Positions 26,706-37,982 of a stretch of DNA of 64,000 nucleotides are shown here, in pieces (positions within the stretch are counted from its first letter, which is position 1; each line of letters opens with the position of its first letter). The notes below the pieces were generated by a model. It was given only the letters and a program-made list of their open reading frames with translations. It was not told the DNA's origin and ran no database searches. A program made the translations under genes and the position numbers. This DNA is from Mogibacterium sp. (GTDB lineage Bacteria > Bacillota > Clostridia > Peptostreptococcales > Anaerovoracaceae), in contig JAFWGQ010000058.1 of assembly GCA_017512365.1 (NCBI GenBank), positions 1-64,000 on the forward strand, written 5' to 3'.

Positions 26706-26821
26706 TGCAATAAACGGGAATTGACCAATAATGAGGTCTATGAATTCGATGTGTAAAGTGATACAATCTTCGGAGTGATTTGAAAGGGCAGGCGCATCGT
26801 CTGCCAAAGGAGCCAATGCTT

Positions 26822-27724
26822 ATGACAAAACAGGAAAGGAAAAAGGCGATACTGTTCTTCACGGTGGTCGCGGCGGTCCTGATGATCGCGGCGATACTGG
26901 TCGGCAGCGTCGAAAAAAAGGAGACCATACAGGACGTCATGAGAGACGCTGTCCTGCATGACATGAACAAGGTCAGCCTTTTCGGCATAATGGACGTCAA
27001 TCCGGGGCTGATCGCGGGCATCATAGTATCGTGCATGCTCATAGTCTTCGCCCTGATCTGCCGCATCTTCGTCATACCGAAGTTCACGACCGTGCCGGGC
27101 AAGTTCCAGTCCGTTCTCGAGACGGCGGTGGGCATCTTCGACAACATGGCGAAGGGCAACTCGAAGATCAACGGCTTCCTCGGGGCGTACATATTCGCGG
27201 CCGGCGCCTACATCTTCACGGGAACTCTCTTTGAACTCTTCGGATTCCAGGTGATCACTACGGAGGGCACATCCATATCGCTTCCGGCGCCGTGCTCGGA
27301 CATCAACGGGGCGATCATGATGGGCTGCCTCTCGTATCTGGTCATAATGTCCGGAGGCATTGCGGGCAACGGCATCAGGGGGATAGGAGAGACCCTCAAG
27401 GAATACTCGCTCCCTATATCCATGAGCTTCCGACTTTTCGGAGCCCTGCTCTCGGGAGCCCTCGTGACCGAGCTCGTGTACTACTACACATCGCTCAGCT
27501 ATGTGCTGCCGGTGCTGGTGGGAGTGCTGTTCACACTGCTCCACGCACTCATACAGGCGTACGTGCTGACCATGCTTACATCCCTCTTCTACGGAAAGGT
27601 ATCGGACAACACGCCTAAGCCGGAGAAGGAAAAGAGCCCGAAGACGGCAAAGACGGCAAAGAAGCCGCCTTCAAAACCTCACAGAAAACGCACCACGGTC
27701 GTCGGAAGACACAGAGCGGCCTAG
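26822..27724 (+). CDS. atpB: F-type ATP synthase subunit a
   Basis: 300 aa, about six hydrophobic segments. The functional Arg (about R204) lies in SMSFRLFGALLSGALV, which corresponds to the family's S-x-x-x-RLFGN motif. The N-terminal part, including SVEKKETIQDVMRD, is poorly conserved, and a basic Lys/Pro-rich cytosolic tail of about 40 residues ends the chain. ATG 26822 is chosen with AAAGGAG at 26806-26812; ATG 26816 is too close. First gene of the operon; no atpI precedes it. Confidence 0.93.
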   Translation: MTKQERKKAILFFTVVAAVLMIAAILVGSVEKKETIQDVMRDAVLHDMNKVSLFGIMDVNPGLIAGIIVSCMLIVFALICRIFVIPKFTTVPGKFQSVLETAVGIFDNMAKGNSKINGFLGAYIFAAGAYIFTGTLFELFGFQVITTEGTSISLPAPCSDINGAIMMGCLSYLVIMSGGIAGNGIRGIGETLKEYSLPISMSFRLFGALLSGALVTELVYYYTSLSYVLPVLVGVLFTLLHALIQAYVLTMLTSLFYGKVSDNTPKPEKEKSPKTAKTAKKPPSKPHRKRTTVVGRHRAA

Positions 27725-27791: not shown

Positions 27792-28211
27792 ATGCTTAAT
27801 CTCAATGTCAAGAAACTTACAAGGATCGCCATAGTGCTCGGAGCCATCATCCTCATCATGGGCACCATCGCAACCATCGGAGCTTTCGCCGACAGCAGCG
27901 TAGCAGATAACGGCGGCGCCGCTGTGACCGCTCAGGATTCAGGCGACGGATACATCGCCGAAGCCCAGGGCGACGCTGCGGACAACACCACGGGCCTCAA
28001 GGCCATCGCGGCCGGCATCGCCATCGGACTCGCGTCCTGCGGCGGCGGCATCGGCATGGGCATATCCGGAGGCAAGGCCGCCGAGGGCATATCAAGGCAG
28101 CCTGAGGCAGACGGCAAGATAAGGACGAGCTTCATGCTGGGACTTGTATTCATCGAGACGGCTATCATTTACGCCCTGCTCGTTGTAATACTGATCATAT
28201 TCGTGCTCTAG
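27792..28211 (+). CDS. atpE: F-type ATP synthase subunit c with N-terminal signal-like extension
   Basis: 139 aa, against a usual 70-90. Residues 68-139 are a normal two-helix c subunit: Gly-rich helix 1 ([16 protein letters not shown]), polar loop RQPE (102-105) and helix 2 with carboxylate E122 in FIETAIIY. Residues 1-33 form a hydrophobic segment ending AFA, like a signal peptide. Residues 34-67 are an acidic, polar linker. If cleaved after A33, or lower down, a mature c subunit results. For ion choice, E122-T123 and Y127 match Na+-type c subunits, but the helix-1 Gln of the Na+ site is Met89, so coupling ion is ambiguous. Confidence 0.93.
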
Positions 28212-28242: not shown

Positions 28243-28737
28243 ATGACAGGTGTACCACTTAACATAGACTGGCAGCAGATACTGCTCCATCTGTTCAACT
28301 TCACCATACTCTTCGGCGCGCTGTACATCCTTCTCTACAAGCCGGTCAAGGACTTCATGACCCAGAGGGAAGAGCACTTCGCAGAAATGGAAAGCAAGGC
28401 CGGCCAGGCGCTTGCCGACGCCGAGAAAAACAAAGAAGAGTATGAGAAGAAGCTCAGCGATTTCGAAGAGAAGTCCAGAGACGACAGGAATCAGATGAGC
28501 AAAGAGGTCGAAGCCGAACGCGAGCGCAGGCTCGGCGAAGTAAAGAGCGAAGCCGAGAAGATCATCGCTGACGCCAGGACCCAGGCTGAGAGAGAAAAGA
28601 GCGAGATAATCGCGTCCGCTCAGAAAGAGATAAGCGGCATGGTCACGGAGGCGACAGAAAAGCTTGCCCTCGACCAGTCGGCTTCTGATGCATTCGATCA
28701 GTTCCTCGACGCTGCGGAGGAGGCGGATCATGAGTAA
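28243..28737 (+). CDS. atpF: F-type ATP synthase subunit b
   Basis: 164 aa: one N-terminal membrane helix (LLHLFNFTILFGALYILLY) followed by a long charged coiled coil (EKNKEEYEKKLSDFEEKSRD). It forms the peripheral stalk. The end is short and is not fused to a delta domain. The stop overlaps the start of the fused alpha gene by 8 bases. Confidence 0.96.
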   Translation: MTGVPLNIDWQQILLHLFNFTILFGALYILLYKPVKDFMTQREEHFAEMESKAGQALADAEKNKEEYEKKLSDFEEKSRDDRNQMSKEVEAERERRLGEVKSEAEKIIADARTQAEREKSEIIASAQKEISGMVTEATEKLALDQSASDAFDQFLDAAEEADHE

Positions 28738-30481
28738 GGAAGAAAAGAATCTGACCGCAAAGCTGTACTCATCCGCAAAGCCGGACAAAAAGCAGGAGGA
28801 AAGGTTCGCCGGGTTTCTTAAAAACAAATACGGACAGGATGTCGCCCTTGAATGGATCGAATCCGACGCTTTTCCGGGCGGATTCAGGATGGAAGTCGGA
28901 TCGGATATCTACGACTGGTCCGTCGGAGGAAGGTTCCGCCAGCTGAGGGAAAGCCTCGCCGAGGTGCCGACTGAGAACGGGAACATCATCCCTCTTCTCA
29001 GAGAGAAGATCGCTTCGTGGACTCCGGAGGCGCTCGCCGAGCAGGTGGGCGAAGTCAAGACCATCGGAGACGGCATCGCGACCGTGAAAGGACTGGAAAA
29101 CGCCACATACGGCGAGATCCTGCTCTTCACGGACGGAGTCAGAGGAATGGTCCAGGATATCCGCGAGGATGAGATCGGATGCATACTCTTCAACGACGAC
29201 GAGGACGTAGTGCAGGGATCCAGCGTAAAGAGGACGGGCAAGACCGCCGGCACTCCGGTCGGGGAGAACTTCCTCGGCAGAGTCGTGGATTCGCTCGGCA
29301 CCCCAATCGACGGGCTCGGCGAGATCGAGTCTTCGGGCTATCTGCCTGTAGAGACTCCGGCGCCGGCCATACTCGACAGACAGCCTGTAGACACGCCGCT
29401 CGAGACCGGCATCTTCTCTATCGACTCAATGTTCCCTATAGGAAGGGGCCAGAGAGAGCTGATCATAGGAGACCGGCAGACCGGAAAGACGGCCATAGCC
29501 GTCGACGCCATAATAAACCAGAAAGGCAAGGACTGCATATGCATCTACGTGGCGATAGGCCAGAAGACCTCGTCCGTGGTCCGCATACAGCAGACTCTCA
29601 TAAAGCACGGAGTGATGGACAACTCCATCATAGTGTCCGCTTCGGCGAGCGACTCCGCGCCGCTCCAGTACATCGCGCCTTACGCAGGATGCGCGATGGC
29701 CGAGTACTTCATGAGCAAGGGCAAAGACGTGCTGATCGTATACGACGATCTGTCAAAGCACGCTGTCGCCTACCGCGCGCTTTCCCTGCTGCTCGACAGA
29801 TCCCCGGGCCGCGAGGCTTATCCGGGCGACGTATTCTACCTGCATTCGAGACTGCTCGAAAGAGCCGCGAGAATGTCGGATGAGAAGGGCGGCGGATCGA
29901 TCACGGCCCTGCCTATAGTCGAGACACAGGCGGGCGATGTATCGGCGTACATACCTACGAATATCATATCCATCACAGACGGTCAGATATTCCTCGAGTC
30001 AGACCTCTTCTTCTCGGGACAGAGACCTGCCGTCAACGTCGGACTCTCGGTATCCCGTGTGGGAGGAGACGCTCAGACGAAGGCCATGAAGAAGGCCGCC
30101 GGCACACTCAGGATCGACCTCGCGCAGTACCGCGAGATGGAGGTCTTCATGCAGTTCGCCTCAGACCTCGACGATCAGACCAGAGCCCAGCTCGAATACG
30201 GCCAGGGCCTCATGCGCATGCTGAGGCAGCCGCAGTACAGGCCGAAGAGCCAGCACGAGCAGGTCATCACCCTCGTGATGGCGCTCGCTCATACGATGCA
30301 GGGCGTAGCTCCGGACGATGTGGATGACTTCATCGGAGAGCTGATCGGCATGTTCGAGACGGAACACAAGGACATCTGCGACCGTATCGATTCGACAGGA
30401 CAGATGGACGACGAACTCAAGCAGGAGATTATCGACATCTCGGCTAAGTTCCGCGAAAAATATAAGCCGGCGAGTAAATAG
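28730..30481 (+). CDS. atpA: ATP synthase subunit alpha with N-terminal delta-like C-terminal domain (delta-alpha fusion)
   Basis: 583 aa; ordinary alpha has about 505. Residues 83-583 are alpha: IIPLLREKIASW, VGEVKTIGDGIATVKGL, Walker A GDRQTGKT at 247-254 (near 169 in E. coli), and the DLSKHAVAYR and PGREAYPGDVFYLHSRLLERAA motifs. Residues 5-78 instead resemble the C-terminal domain of subunit delta: TAKLYSSA, ERFAGFLKNKYGQDVALE, then GGFRMEVGSDIYDWSVGGR and FRQLRESL. Compare the family pattern I-GG-V-V-x-VGD-x-V-x-D-GS-V-x-x-x-L-x-x-L-x-x-x-L. No separate atpH exists between atpF and this gene, nor elsewhere in the operon, and the delta N-terminal helical domain is absent. ATG 28730 overlaps the end of atpF. 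Confidence 0.93.
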   Translation: MSKEEKNLTAKLYSSAKPDKKQEERFAGFLKNKYGQDVALEWIESDAFPGGFRMEVGSDIYDWSVGGRFRQLRESLAEVPTENGNIIPLLREKIASWTPEALAEQVGEVKTIGDGIATVKGLENATYGEILLFTDGVRGMVQDIREDEIGCILFNDDEDVVQGSSVKRTGKTAGTPVGENFLGRVVDSLGTPIDGLGEIESSGYLPVETPAPAILDRQPVDTPLETGIFSIDSMFPIGRGQRELIIGDRQTGKTAIAVDAIINQKGKDCICIYVAIGQKTSSVVRIQQTLIKHGVMDNSIIVSASASDSAPLQYIAPYAGCAMAEYFMSKGKDVLIVYDDLSKHAVAYRALSLLLDRSPGREAYPGDVFYLHSRLLERAARMSDEKGGGSITALPIVETQAGDVSAYIPTNIISITDGQIFLESDLFFSGQRPAVNVGLSVSRVGGDAQTKAMKKAAGTLRIDLAQYREMEVFMQFASDLDDQTRAQLEYGQGLMRMLRQPQYRPKSQHEQVITLVMALAHTMQGVAPDDVDDFIGELIGMFETEHKDICDRIDSTGQMDDELKQEIIDISAKFREKYKPASK

Positions 30482-30493
30482 CATCAGATTCAA

Positions 30494-32816
<2,323 letters not shown>

Positions 32817-32817
32817 G

Positions 32818-33231
32818 ATGGATAATTACAGGCTTCAGATAATGGCAAGCGACCACATGGTGTTCGACGGCGACGCGCAGTCGGTCTCGCTCCCTACGAC
32901 GGAGGGCAGCATCGGCATACTGGCGCATCACTCGAATATCATAATGGCCGTAGTGCCGGGAGAGATCACATACAGGGCCGCGGATGGCAGGGAAGAGACC
33001 GTCATAGTTTCGGACGGCCTGCTTAAGGTCGAGAACGGCGAGGCCATGATACTCGTCGATACGGCCGAGAGACCTGACGAGATAGACGAGGCCAGAGCAC
33101 AGAGGGCGGAGGAAAGAGCCAGGGAAGAGCTCAAGAGAGCGAATACAAACAGGGATATCGCCCTCGCCAGCGCGGAGCTTTCAAGGGCGATGGCACGTAT
33201 AAAATCCTCCAAAAAGAAGCACCGCATCTGA
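32818..33231 (+). CDS. atpC: F-type ATP synthase subunit epsilon
   Basis: 137 aa. N-terminal beta-sandwich (VFDGDAQSVSLPTTEGSIGILAHH, GEITYRA) and C-terminal helical hairpin (EARAQRAEERAREELKRA) that can inhibit ATP hydrolysis. One base separates it from the atpD stop. Last gene of the operon. Confidence 0.97.
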   Translation: MDNYRLQIMASDHMVFDGDAQSVSLPTTEGSIGILAHHSNIIMAVVPGEITYRAADGREETVIVSDGLLKVENGEAMILVDTAERPDEIDEARAQRAEERAREELKRANTNRDIALASAELSRAMARIKSSKKKHRI

Positions 33232-33331: not shown

Positions 33332-35404
33332 GTGAAGACTGTCCTGAGCATATTCAGGGATGATATAAGAGCAGTAAGCCGGCGCTTTTTTGCGCTGGCT
33401 ATTATCGTGGCGATCTCTTTCCTTCCGGCTCTTTACGCGTGGGTAAATATTTACGCCAACGGCAACCCGTATGCCAACACGGGAGGCATAAAGATCGCGG
33501 TCGCTTCCGTCGACCCGGGCATCGATCTCGGTGACGGCACCCATGTGAACATGGCGGACGAGGTCGCAGAGGATCTCAGGAAGAGCGACAAGATCGGATG
33601 GCAGTTCCCGGAAAGCGCCGAAGAGGCCATAGACGGCGTCGAGTCCGGAGAGTATTACGCCGCCGTCGTCTTCGAAAAAAACTTCACATACAACATGTAT
33701 AACTTCGAGCAGGCGCTGCTCGACCGCAAGGCGCCTATCACCTATTACGAGAACGCAAAGAAAAACGCGGTCGCATCCAAGATCACCGAGACCGCCGCGC
33801 AGAACGTGCAGGAGTCGATCAAGACGAAATATCTCGAGACGGTGTTCGGCGTCATTTTCGATGAAACCAACGACGCGGCCGACAAGATCAGAGCCGGCAG
33901 CACGGCGGACAGCGTGATCGCGCAGCTCAGGGATCTGAGGGATACGCTGAGGGCGTATGATACGGCGATCAGCGCGTTCACGGACAAGAGCGGAAGCGTG
34001 CACTCGGGGATATCGACCGCGAGGAAAAAACTGGCAAATACGCGCAAGTCGGCGAACGAATCGGCTTCGAGCGCCGGCAGCGATCTCGCAAAGGCGAGGA
34101 GCAGCCTCGTGGTGCTGCAGAAAGCTCTCGAGGAGAGAGAAAAAAAGATAGAAAAAGAGCGGAAGACGCTTGAGAATACAGTAAATAAGCTGAACGATTC
34201 CGCGCTGACGCCTGCCGAAAGAGCGGCGCTCGAAAAGCAGGCCAGGGATCAGGCCAATGTGTTGAAATCCGATATCGAGGGTCTGCTGGCATCCTTCCCT
34301 GCGGATTCCGACAGCGCCGCAGTCAAGGCGATAAGCGCGGTACTGACGAGCATGATAAGCGATCTGGACGCCATATCGGCATCCCTGTCCGATCCCGTGG
34401 TCACGTCAGCTCTTTCGGAGGAGCTGAAGAAGCTCAGCCAGGTCTCGCTTGCCGAATCGGTCGCATCTCTGATCACGACCATGGACAGGACGCTCGATCT
34501 GATGGAGCCTCTGATGAAGAGCATGTCTTCGATGCTGGGAGACATCGATCCGGTGCTCAAGAGCGCCGACGGCACTGTGAGCGATCTTGACGAGTCCCTG
34601 CTGCAGATGCAGAAGCTCTTCCGCGGGACCGCGGACAAGGTGGACGATATCATCGCGAAGGTAGAGGCTGCTTCCGGGAACGACAAGCTGGCCCTGCTCG
34701 TGAAGCTGCTCGGTGGCGATCCCGAGGAGTACGCGAAATTCTTCTCATCACTCGTGGACGTCGAAGTGGAGGAAGTGTATTCCGTCGCCTCGTACGGAGC
34801 GGCGATGGCGCCGTTCTATTCGGTGCTGGCCATCTGGGTCGGAGGGGTAATACTCGTATCCATACTCAAAACACACATAGACAGGAAGAAATACCCGGGA
34901 GTCACCGAAGCCCAGGCGTTCTTCGGGCGCTTCCTGCTCTTCTTCCTGATAGGACAGGCCCAGGCGGCGGTCATAGTGGCGGGAGACATATTCCTGCTGC
35001 ACTGCGAGCCTGTGCATCCGTGGCTGATGTGGATCGCGGCGGCTGTCTCCAGCTTTGTATTCGTGATGCTGATCTACGCGCTGACGCTGTCGTTCGGGGA
35101 CATAGGAAAAGCGATGGTGGTAGTCGTGATGGTGCTGCAGATCGCGGGCTCGAGCGGCTCCTATCCTATCGAGATACTGCCGGTCGTGTTCGGCAAGATA
35201 TATAAGTTCTTCCCGTTCCCGTACGCGATAAACGCCATGAGAGAAGGGCTGTGCGGAACGTACGGAAACGATTTTATCGGCTATCTGGCGGAGCTGCTGC
35301 TGTTTGCGGTGCTGGCTCTTGCCATCGGACTTTTCGTAAGGAAGCCGTTCATAGCGATGAACGACTTCGTGACTGAAAAGATCGAAGAAACGGAGGTGCT
35401 GTGA
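33332..35404 (+). CDS. YhgE/Pip-family membrane protein (first copy)
   Basis: 690 aa from GTG with CGGGAGGA upstream. One N-terminal membrane helix (ALAIIVAISFLPALYAWVNIYAN) leads into an outside domain with the family motif YYENAKKNAVASKITE. A long Ala/Ser/Lys-rich coiled coil (about 210-480) and five to six C-terminal membrane helices related to ABC-2 permeases follow (MAPFYSVLAIWVGG, SSGSYPIEILPVVF, FPYAINAMREGLCG). The family includes the Lactococcus phage infection protein Pip and Bacillus YhgE; members are linked to phage receptor function and type VII-like export. It ends inside TGATG with the next gene. Confidence 0.9.
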   Translation: MKTVLSIFRDDIRAVSRRFFALAIIVAISFLPALYAWVNIYANGNPYANTGGIKIAVASVDPGIDLGDGTHVNMADEVAEDLRKSDKIGWQFPESAEEAIDGVESGEYYAAVVFEKNFTYNMYNFEQALLDRKAPITYYENAKKNAVASKITETAAQNVQESIKTKYLETVFGVIFDETNDAADKIRAGSTADSVIAQLRDLRDTLRAYDTAISAFTDKSGSVHSGISTARKKLANTRKSANESASSAGSDLAKARSSLVVLQKALEEREKKIEKERKTLENTVNKLNDSALTPAERAALEKQARDQANVLKSDIEGLLASFPADSDSAAVKAISAVLTSMISDLDAISASLSDPVVTSALSEELKKLSQVSLAESVASLITTMDRTLDLMEPLMKSMSSMLGDIDPVLKSADGTVSDLDESLLQMQKLFRGTADKVDDIIAKVEAASGNDKLALLVKLLGGDPEEYAKFFSSLVDVEVEEVYSVASYGAAMAPFYSVLAIWVGGVILVSILKTHIDRKKYPGVTEAQAFFGRFLLFFLIGQAQAAVIVAGDIFLLHCEPVHPWLMWIAAAVSSFVFVMLIYALTLSFGDIGKAMVVVVMVLQIAGSSGSYPIEILPVVFGKIYKFFPFPYAINAMREGLCGTYGNDFIGYLAELLLFAVLALAIGLFVRKPFIAMNDFVTEKIEETEVL

Positions 35405-35844
35405 TGGATAAGCAGGACCGCCATTACGAAGATCTGTACAGGCGTCTCCGTGAACGCGGAGAGACGATGCACATGAACAATAAGAAGAGGATCAGGATAG
35501 GCCTGATCGTGCTTGCGCTGCTTCCGGCCATACTCATCTTCATAAGGTGGGCGACGGACAGCGACAGGGTGGTATTCCTCATCATATGGGTGCTTTGCAT
35601 GTTCGCGGCGTGCATCTATCTGATCAGCATCGAGTTCATCGATTATCAGCTACAGAAGACGCTGGAGGAGGTGACCGAAAGAGAGGCCGACATGGGAAGA
35701 CTTATCATCGGCACCGAACAGATCGGCGAGAAAATAGTCGAGAGGCACGAGCGCATCCATGAGCGCAGGCAGGAAAGACGCGGGAAAAAACAGGAGCAGG
35801 AGATACACTACTTCAGGCCTCCGGAAAGCGGGGATGAACTATGA
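35404..35844 (+). CDS. Small two-helix membrane protein between YhgE/Pip genes
   Basis: 146 aa. Two adjacent hydrophobic helices (RIGLIVLALLPAILIFI and VVFLIIWVLCMFAACIYLI) are followed by a charged, probably cytosolic coiled coil ending in an Arg/Glu-rich tail. The ATG at 35404 overlaps the upstream stop with GGAGGT before it; the stop overlaps the second YhgE start (ATGA). No family recognised. The tight coupling on both sides suggests a partner of the two large proteins. Confidence 0.75.
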   Translation: MDKQDRHYEDLYRRLRERGETMHMNNKKRIRIGLIVLALLPAILIFIRWATDSDRVVFLIIWVLCMFAACIYLISIEFIDYQLQKTLEEVTEREADMGRLIIGTEQIGEKIVERHERIHERRQERRGKKQEQEIHYFRPPESGDEL

Positions 35845-37982
35845 AGAACATCCTCAGAATAATCAGACATGATCTCAGAAAGATAAGCGGAAGCGTGGTC
35901 GCCATAATAACGATCATGGGTCTCTGCATCATCCCGTGCCTGTACGCATGGTTCAACATTTTCTCGAACTGGGCTCCGTACGAGTCCGACGCGACGGGCA
36001 GGATATCCGTCGCCATCGCAAACAGCGACGAAGGATATACCGCTGCCGGCATCACCATCAATGTGGGAGACAAGATAGTCGAGGCGCTGAAGGCGAACGA
36101 TGCAATAGGATGGCAGTTCGTCGACGGCGAAGAGACCGCAAAGGAGCGCGTGTACGCGGGCGACTGCTACGCCGCCATCGTCATTCCCGAAGACTTCAGC
36201 TGCGATGTGCTGAGCTTCGCCAGGGGCGATCTCACGAATCCGAAAATAAAGTACTACGAAAACGAAAAGAAGAACGCGATCGCTCCGAAGATCACCGGCA
36301 AGGCAAAGACGGCTCTGCAGGAGCAGGTGAACGCGACATTCGTCGAGACGCTCGCCGGCTATGTGTCCGACGCGGCGTCGGTCGCTGAGGCGGGCGGAGC
36401 GGATCCGGCGTCCATGCTCTCCGACATGTCGGAAAAGGCGAAGGAACTGAGCCGCGATGTCGACAGCTGCATCGCGCTTTCCGACTCGGCAGCCGGACTG
36501 ACCGGTTCGGCCGGATCGATGCTCGATGTCTCGGAGAATTTCATCGGCAGCACGCAGGATGTGATCTCCGCAAACGACCTTCTGCTGGCAGAGGCCGAAA
36601 AGCAGCTGAATGACACCGGCAGGACGGACACGAAGTCGCTGGAGACGGCGTCAAAGCGGATAAAAACCACTGCCGCGTCCCTGAAGACTCTCGAGACTGT
36701 CATGGAGTCGCTTGCCGCGGACAATATCGCGTTCGGCCTCTTTATCGACAACGACAGAGACAAGTGGGTCAGCAGGGTCGACGGCATGCAGAGAGACGCG
36801 AAAGAGCAGGCGGGGATCGTCAGGGCCGAGGGCTTTACGGCGCTTGCGGACAGATTCGAAGAGCTTGCCGGCACGCTCGGAGACATATCCTCGAGTCTGA
36901 GCGGACTCGACAAGAGCATGACGGAGGATGAGAGGCGGAATGCTGTAAGGTCGATCTCCGCAGACATAAAGAAGGCTGAGAAACAGACAGACGCGATAAT
37001 AGAGCAGATCAGGACGGACATAGACACAAATCTGGAGACGGCTCTCGCCAATTCAAGAAGATCGATCTCGAAGTTCAGAAAGGCCATGACCGGAGCGGGA
37101 AGGGATCTCGGTACGCTGAGCGACGCGCTGGAATCGTACGGAGGCTCGCTTGACAGCCTCAGGTCGAGCATAGACAAGACGACGGCAAGCCTGAAGTCGC
37201 TGCAGCGCGGAGCGAACACGGCTGCAGATCTTCTGTCCGACGCTTCGGGAAGCGAGCTGCTGCAGAGGCTGAACGAGCTCGCGGCGGGCGATGAGGCCGC
37301 TGTCGCCGAGTATCTGGCGAATCCGGTAAAGATGGACACAAAGGTGTTCTGGCCGATAGAGACCTACGGCTCCGTGATGGCGCCGTTCTACACCGTGCTG
37401 GCGCAGTGGGTCGGAGCGCTGCTGACGGCCGTGCTCATCAAGGTCAGGATAAAGAAGAGGCGCGATTATCCGAAACTCAGGCTCCACGAATGGTTCTTCG
37501 GGAGATACGGGCTTTACATGCTTGTAGGTCTTGCCCAGGGACTCATAGTATCGCTCGGAGACCTGCTCTATATACATATCCAGTGCACCGCGCCGCTGAG
37601 ATTCGTGCTGATCGCGTGCATCAACGGCATGGTATTCATGATGATAAACTACGCGCTCGTGTTCGCGCTTGACAATATCGGTCTCGGCGCCGGAGTCATC
37701 ATACTGGTGCTGCAGGTAGCCGGATCGGGCGGGACCTATCCGGTCGAGGTGCTGCCTCATCCGTTCCGGGTGCTCTATCCTTTCATGCCGTTCCGCTATT
37801 CGATGGATGCCATGCGCGAATGCATAGGCGGCATGTATGACGGCACGTACTGGAAATGCGCGGGAGTCCTGATGATCTTCTTCGTGTTCTCGGTGGCGTT
37901 CGGCCTCGCGTTCTACCGCCCGGCCAGAAAACTCAACGAGATGATAGCGATAAGCAAGGCAAAGAGCGAGATAATGCTGTAA
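35841..37982 (+). CDS. YhgE/Pip-family membrane protein (second copy)
   Basis: 713 aa with the same architecture as the first: an N-terminal membrane helix (VVAIITIMGLCIIPCLYAWFNI), the motif YYENEKKNAIAPKITGKAK, a long helical coiled coil (about 180-490), and C-terminal membrane helices with VMAPFYTVLAQWVGALL, SGGTYPVEVLP and FMPFRYSMDAMRECIGG. The two copies are clearly related but far from identical, so the duplication is old or heterodimerisation is selected. Four-base overlap with the upstream gene. Confidence 0.9.
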   Translation: MKNILRIIRHDLRKISGSVVAIITIMGLCIIPCLYAWFNIFSNWAPYESDATGRISVAIANSDEGYTAAGITINVGDKIVEALKANDAIGWQFVDGEETAKERVYAGDCYAAIVIPEDFSCDVLSFARGDLTNPKIKYYENEKKNAIAPKITGKAKTALQEQVNATFVETLAGYVSDAASVAEAGGADPASMLSDMSEKAKELSRDVDSCIALSDSAAGLTGSAGSMLDVSENFIGSTQDVISANDLLLAEAEKQLNDTGRTDTKSLETASKRIKTTAASLKTLETVMESLAADNIAFGLFIDNDRDKWVSRVDGMQRDAKEQAGIVRAEGFTALADRFEELAGTLGDISSSLSGLDKSMTEDERRNAVRSISADIKKAEKQTDAIIEQIRTDIDTNLETALANSRRSISKFRKAMTGAGRDLGTLSDALESYGGSLDSLRSSIDKTTASLKSLQRGANTAADLLSDASGSELLQRLNELAAGDEAAVAEYLANPVKMDTKVFWPIETYGSVMAPFYTVLAQWVGALLTAVLIKVRIKKRRDYPKLRLHEWFFGRYGLYMLVGLAQGLIVSLGDLLYIHIQCTAPLRFVLIACINGMVFMMINYALVFALDNIGLGAGVIILVLQVAGSGGTYPVEVLPHPFRVLYPFMPFRYSMDAMRECIGGMYDGTYWKCAGVLMIFFVFSVAFGLAFYRPARKLNEMIAISKAKSEIML

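Follow-up and report, generated by a model that had tools for sequence, protein, structure and literature searches.

The subject of this report is an F-type ATP synthase operon in a stretch of 64,000 nucleotides (the window; positions 1 to 64,000, forward strand, of contig JAFWGQ010000058.1) from the Mogibacterium sp. assembly GCA_017512365.1. It is confirmed that the open reading frame (ORF) at 28730-30481 encodes a full F-type alpha subunit preceded by the C-terminal domain (CTD) of subunit delta, the delta N-terminal domain (NTD) being absent. This delta-CTD-alpha architecture is common to a large clostridial clade that is new here, all 80 of the loci fetched being fused. By analogy with an engineered enzyme, the ATP synthase concerned probably carries more than one, and up to three, b2 peripheral stalks, a reading to which we give a probability of roughly 0.6. 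The fused gene is composed as follows.

28716 to 28723, plus strand: GGAGGAGG, six bases 5′ of the ATG at 28730, a stretch of the sequence that we take to be Shine-Dalgarno-like.
28730 to 28957, plus strand: delta (OSCP) CTD, residues 1-76 of the fused alpha, assigned by PF00213, by the A3 profile against delta chains of the Protein Data Bank (PDB), and by an AlphaFold2 (AF2) model with fold search.
28958 to 28984, plus strand: short linker from the delta CTD to the alpha N-terminal helix, about residues 77-85, placed by alignment to 9JC1_I and by the YDW-DG[IV] spacing.
28985 to 30481, plus strand: F-type ATP synthase alpha from the N-terminal helix to the stop, about residues 86-583 (TIGR00962; PF02874, PF00006, PF00306).

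The ATG at 28730 opens a protein of 583 residues and lies within the end of the b gene, which the fused gene overlaps by 8 bases (b stop, 28735-28737). The initial annotation had read residues 5-78 as the delta CTD, and these limits are right to within a few residues: PF00213 (OSCP/delta) scores 33.3 bits (cut-off, 22.3), its positions 97-172 of 172 aligning with residues 2-76, and the match persists when residues 1-91 are searched alone (E = 2.5e-9). Profile positions 1-96 are unmatched in the fused alpha, and b lies directly upstream. The protein thus has the CTD fold of delta/OSCP at its N-terminus and no NTD seated on the alpha N-termini, as a complete delta would have. The A3 profile of the N-terminal part also matches PDB delta chains, so that profile, solved-structure and predicted-fold comparisons all support residues 1-76 as the delta CTD. 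The same comparisons, together with the failure to find a separate delta, uphold the earlier proposal that the NTD was lost and replaced by direct fusion. The alpha part is full length, since the equivalog model TIGR00962 covers residues 85-578 (725.6 bits; cut-off, 484.45), and the motif GDRQTGKT, which we take to be the P-loop, is intact. The best NCBIfam model for the whole protein is atpA; because it spans residues 85-578, the delta part is hidden in any annotation resting on it. The computed mass is 63.9 kDa. The fused N-terminus has no hydrophobic segment, its Kyte-Doolittle mean over 19 residues being -0.15, against 2.17 for the b subunit of the window.

The gene order is a-c-b-[deltaCTD-alpha]-gamma-beta-epsilon; as first claimed, the operon contains no delta gene, and it leaves no room for one. 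Across the whole assembly, which is 92.9% complete with 6.94% contamination, PF00213 at E up to 10 found two places, both fused alphas, and no separate delta. The second place is on a 5.2-kb contig (C35) that is 78.7% identical to the window over 2495 bases. Because it is 99.7% identical over 3231 bases to the sampled genome G294, C35 is most likely a contaminating contig. The survey of relatives that had been proposed gave the same picture: 18 of the 20 other sampled genomes of the genus carry the fusion, each with one OSCP match over the cut-off, no separate delta over it, and one alpha match, as counted by scoring the best four first-look candidates per genome. A second alpha or a hidden atpH was thus looked for in the assembly and its congeners and was not found. 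Family-wide, an OSCP match at E up to 0.1 occurs in 220 of 296 genomes (206 over the cut-off), mostly full length among those listed. Two other arrangements were also seen. G144 (L100:7845-9953), which is not among the genomes with an OSCP match, has the operon a-c-b-alpha-gamma-beta-epsilon, in which no delta was found in the interval from b to alpha. G011 and G095 (L098, L099) have a free short delta, a 160-codon frame between b and a separate alpha that matches OSCP 88-172 only.

The fusion is widely represented in databases, where 259 proteins match the N-terminal 90 residues (E up to 1e-3) and 119 of the 120 matches listed bear PF00213. From named assemblies, the best 80 of 198 stretches encoding relatives were kept; these loci were picked by the fused pattern and give no frequency. 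In all 80, the CTD stands directly before alpha in one frame and no delta lies between b and alpha, while b is upstream in 79, the other locus (L160) being cut by a contig end. Of 77 loci measured, 76 have a spacing of 53 residues from the YDW motif of the CTD to the DG[IV] of alpha, L160 again being the exception. Low ratios of nonsynonymous to synonymous substitution (dN/dS) place the N-terminal CTD under purifying selection. The sources are rumen and gut metagenome-assembled genomes (MAGs) labelled Mogibacterium, Gallimonas, Alloclostridium, Ornithoclostridium, Avimonoglobus, Christensenellaceae and others, as well as one strain record, Anaeromassilibacillus senegalensis An867 (L191), whose sole OSCP match is the fused one. 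Whole-genome searches of 15 named genomes at E up to 0.01 gave no OSCP other than the fused one in 12. What the finding supplies is a large clade, congeneric genomes without another delta, and one named strain record (An867).

In a first tree of alpha subunits, the window clade forms one group (35 rows; Shimodaira-Hasegawa-like approximate likelihood ratio test, 100) beside alphas accompanied by an ordinary delta. Sampling was extended to 291 genomes of the class, at least 153 of which have a strong alpha match, and in at least 22 rows outside G000 a single open frame runs from delta-like sequence into alpha with no intervening stop. Eighteen of these were fetched, leaving out G344, G398, G489 and G565 (all genus g115), and the addition of G309 and of the second operon of G494 made 20 class-wide stretches. 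Of these, 16 are delta-CTD-alpha from nine additional families, 3 are full delta-alpha fusions and 1 is an ordinary operon. For the second tree, 14 named rows were dropped, either as long branches (L185, L103, L097) or as near copies or for space, and L200 contributed no row. A single origin of all delta-CTD-alpha, upheld by the first tree, fails once the class-wide loci are included (approximately unbiased test, p 4.6e-7; 49 rows, quick tree). L212-L214 with L230 (support 98), and L231, are placed apart from the window clade; this second lineage bears general labels only, one MAG being called Clostridiales. The trees thus indicate that delta-CTD-alpha arose more than once, a result that is new here. 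Full delta-alpha fusions, also new here, occur in G107, G143, L215, L224 and L225. The near-basal position of L215 relative to the window clade (support 91, not starred) suggests that the stop codon was lost first and the domain later.

Two delta-CTD-alpha operons also contain an open frame of about 800 codons that joins a whole gamma (PF00231) to beta (G546, L226:9091-11499, plus strand; G420, L227:7563-9956, plus strand). Since a covalent link between rotor and stator would stop rotation, these frames seem to need internal initiation or cleavage. Both retain the beta-start ATG (MDQK) and, ahead of it, a purine-rich stretch; no other gamma match was found in G420, and one lies elsewhere in G546.

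A further variant, likewise new here, joins three subunits. In G105 (L111:2961-5198, minus strand), a chain of 745 residues begins with a membrane helix and a b-like stretch, continues with the delta CTD and ends with alpha. It shares with the window protein a delta CTD directly before alpha and a missing NTD, and differs in what precedes the CTD and in its position in a separate alpha clade, which unites all 15 sampled triple-fusion rows (support 100). The first 260 residues of the G105 chain are matched by 124 database proteins, itself included; 119 of the 120 listed (P0121-P0240) are 694-789 residues long and one is partial (517), and among the few sources named are Oscillospiraceae and Ruminococcaceae MAGs. 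A hydrophobic stretch (mean Kyte-Doolittle over 19 residues of at least 1.6) lies within the first 45 residues in all 120, while PF00430 exceeds its cut-off of 28 only in L111 (28.4), with P0122 (25.1) and P0192 (22.7) below it. In G105 alone, a second b gene was seen adjoining the fusion (L111:5210-5626, minus strand). The AF2 model of the triple fusion is poor overall (predicted local distance difference test, 61.8), and its PDB comparison reached mainly the alpha part. The triple fusion is rare in the genomes sampled, with none in 398 genomes of the phylum at E up to 1e-250 (positive control G105, E 0) and no whole-model match among those listed from the 291 class genomes. No description of it was found in the titles and abstract starts of the open-licence PMC papers searched. 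If it is made as encoded, every alpha would have its own membrane stalk half.

The initial annotation knew of no described delta-alpha fusion, a statement that is out of date: the design was described in 2025, both by construction and as named natural candidates. In Ueno et al. 2025, delta residues 2-104 of Bacillus PS3 FoF1 were deleted and the CTD was fused to alpha, and this delta-dN-alpha enzyme bore up to three peripheral stalks (PMC12229609). The reasoning given there is that the delta NTD, seated on the pseudo-threefold axis, limits stalks to one (PMC12229609). Natural delta-dN-alpha is reported for Acidaminococcus fermentans and for UniProt G4Q3K6 and A0A1I2C5T3, in which a multi-stalk enzyme is called highly likely, as a prediction only (PMC12229609); by that description, their architecture is like that of the window. 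The engineered protein (PDB 9JC1) likewise has a CTD without NTD on the alpha N-terminus and no free delta. Window residues 15-561 align with 9JC1_I 10-561, linker included (E 5.2e-176), and the A3 profile aligns over 6-107 with 9JC1_I 4-109 (E 1.1e-9), the linker being 3 residues longer in 9JC1_I. The PS3 construct differs in being laboratory-made and in lacking the epsilon CTD, which the window epsilon keeps (PF00401), while the window operon, known here from its sequence, has extended a and c subunits. Mycobacterial b-delta (for example PDB 7JG5 chain d), presented as a Rosetta Stone (PMC5709465), resembles the window protein in having the delta CTD built into another stator subunit, and the A3 profile picks up 7JG5_d at 1.8e-4. 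The partner of delta in that fusion is b, with alpha left free, whereas the window b is a separate ORF (28243-28737) and its fused chain has no b membrane helix. In the operon orders quoted from the same source, N-ATPase also has no delta, but its order is beta-epsilon-...-a-c-b-alpha-gamma (PMC5709465), not the a-c-b-alpha-gamma-beta-epsilon of the window. The window operon is not beta-first, and its alpha scores 585.1 bits with the alternate-F1F0 model TIGR03324, against a cut-off of 750.5.

Because the CTD-alpha chain is colinear with the engineered one, several stalks are likely, and a multi-stalk state appears to be the best-supported mechanism. In this proposal, the delta NTD was lost and the CTD fused, so that every alpha, three per enzyme, would provide a stalk socket of its own. 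Without an NTD on the pseudo-threefold axis, as in the case made by Ueno et al. 2025, nothing would limit stalks to one. Each b2 would bring an a subunit, and the ions used per turn would be the product of c-ring size and the number of a subunits. The natural enzyme is thus likely to have two or three stalks and a higher ion/ATP ratio. It would then be able to make ATP, or to hold a gradient, when ion-motive force is low, and an anaerobe equipped with Rnf/Nqr-type pumps could profit from this. Of 21 genomes of the genus, 20 encode PF03116 (Nqr2/RnfD/RnfE), which fits a small ion gradient and proves nothing on stalks.

Several observations weigh against a multi-stalk enzyme. The genes for b and a are single in the operon, with no sign in the sequence of extra expression of either, and a start-like in-frame GTG (28967 to 28969, plus strand, residue 80) stands at the junction of the fused gene. 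No structure, stoichiometry or H+/ATP ratio of a natural member was found. Three of the 15 named genomes (those of L167, L172 and L190) also hold a full delta elsewhere. Two genomes of the same genus, G082 and G290 (L109, L110), have an ordinary full delta and a separate alpha; their alphas fall in another part of the tree, and it looks as if the operon had been replaced. Fused and ordinary-length alphas occur together in G320, G380, G473, G494, G515, G342 and G546, and among these both operons were fetched for G494 only. For the engineered enzyme itself, triple-stalk particles are reported to be rare, with an average of two stalks (PMC12229609).

The first alternative, unlikely though worth serious consideration, is an enzyme with one stalk and two unused sockets. 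Only one b2 and one a would assemble, the other CTDs would cap F1 or stay free, and the fusion would merely replace the anchor provided by the delta NTD. The single a and b genes favour this arrangement, as does the one stalk generally described for natural F-type enzymes whose structures are solved. One stalk is reported for the E. coli enzyme (PMC6384691), and engineered particles often have fewer than three (PMC12229609). Yet all three sites of the engineered fusion are reported to bind b2 in the ordinary way (PMC12229609). The purifying selection on the CTD also argues against idle sockets, and the b-deltaCTD-alpha clade would place a membrane helix on every alpha.

A second and quite improbable alternative is that internal initiation or cleavage yields two short alphas and one long alpha per F1, which would restore one stalk. 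The window GTG invites this view, and a start-like codon occupies the same position (-7) in 20 of 76 loci, the four of the 80 without the helix motif used as anchor being set aside. Yet 29 of the 76 lack such a codon between 20 codons before the helix start and 14 after it, and among 33 distinct loci (37 rows) four lack one throughout -45 to +30. The predicted strength of the ribosome site at -7 varies from -5.0 to +0.6 kcal/mol across loci. Internal initiation, looked for as a source of short alpha in the 33 and the 76 loci, is thus not conserved, and each of the 18 fused congeners has one alpha match. As no way to make a short alpha was found, all three alphas are expected to carry the CTD, giving three delta CTDs per F1. 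The earlier claim of three delta-like domains therefore stands if alpha is made only as encoded. The argument is limited to the genus because some genomes of other families, in which a second, ordinary-length alpha gene speaks for mixing, also hold that form; alpha mixing may occur there. Misassembly, a missed separate atpH or a dead operon, which the incompleteness and contamination of the assembly might suggest, can be dismissed, since the fusion recurs in 80 of 80 loci from independent assemblies, 259 database proteins match its N-terminal part, 12 of 15 named genomes have no other OSCP match, and dN/dS is low.

The number of stalks in F-type enzymes has so far been treated as fixed at one. 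It is about an even bet that natural three-stalk F-type synthases occur widely among anaerobic Clostridia and evolved on more than one occasion, through loss of the axis-blocking NTD and a built-in socket on each alpha, as low-gear enzymes with up to three a subunits. If so, F-, A- and V-type enzymes would overlap in stalk number, and the b-deltaCTD-alpha lineage would go furthest, with a stalk half welded to every alpha. Should natural multi-stalk enzymes exist, c-ring size multiplied by the count of a subunits would determine the ion/ATP ratio, and ATP synthesis by fermenters with weak ion gradients would be easier to explain.

The other genes of the operon are as follows.

26780 to 27724, plus strand: atpB, subunit a (PF00119); the ORF-finder start is TTG, and ATG 26822 is also possible.
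27792 to 28211, plus strand: atpE, subunit c with an N-terminal extension (PF00137, residues 72-135).
28243 to 28737, plus strand: atpF, subunit b, a separate ORF (PF00430, 61.3 bits).
30494 to 31393, plus strand: atpG, gamma (PF00231, 280 bits).
31431 to 32816, plus strand: atpD, beta (PF02874, PF00006, PF22919).
32818 to 33231, plus strand: atpC, epsilon (PF02823, PF00401).

The window c has 139 residues, and its PF00137 match begins at residue 72; by eye, a signal-peptide-like N-terminus and an acidic stretch precede the hairpin. Across the 80 loci, every window-clade c frame found is at least 114 residues long between stops, whereas those of the ordinary relatives L092-L095 have 77-86, and subunit a has at least 271 residues in uncut loci, against 230-239. 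The fusion does not require these extensions, because they are absent from the fused lineages L212-L214, L220-L222, L230 and L231. Just 3′ of the operon (33332-37982), two large membrane proteins (ABC2_membrane_3) flank a protein of 147 residues with no Pfam match, and the second of the two also matches DUF3533 above its cut-off.
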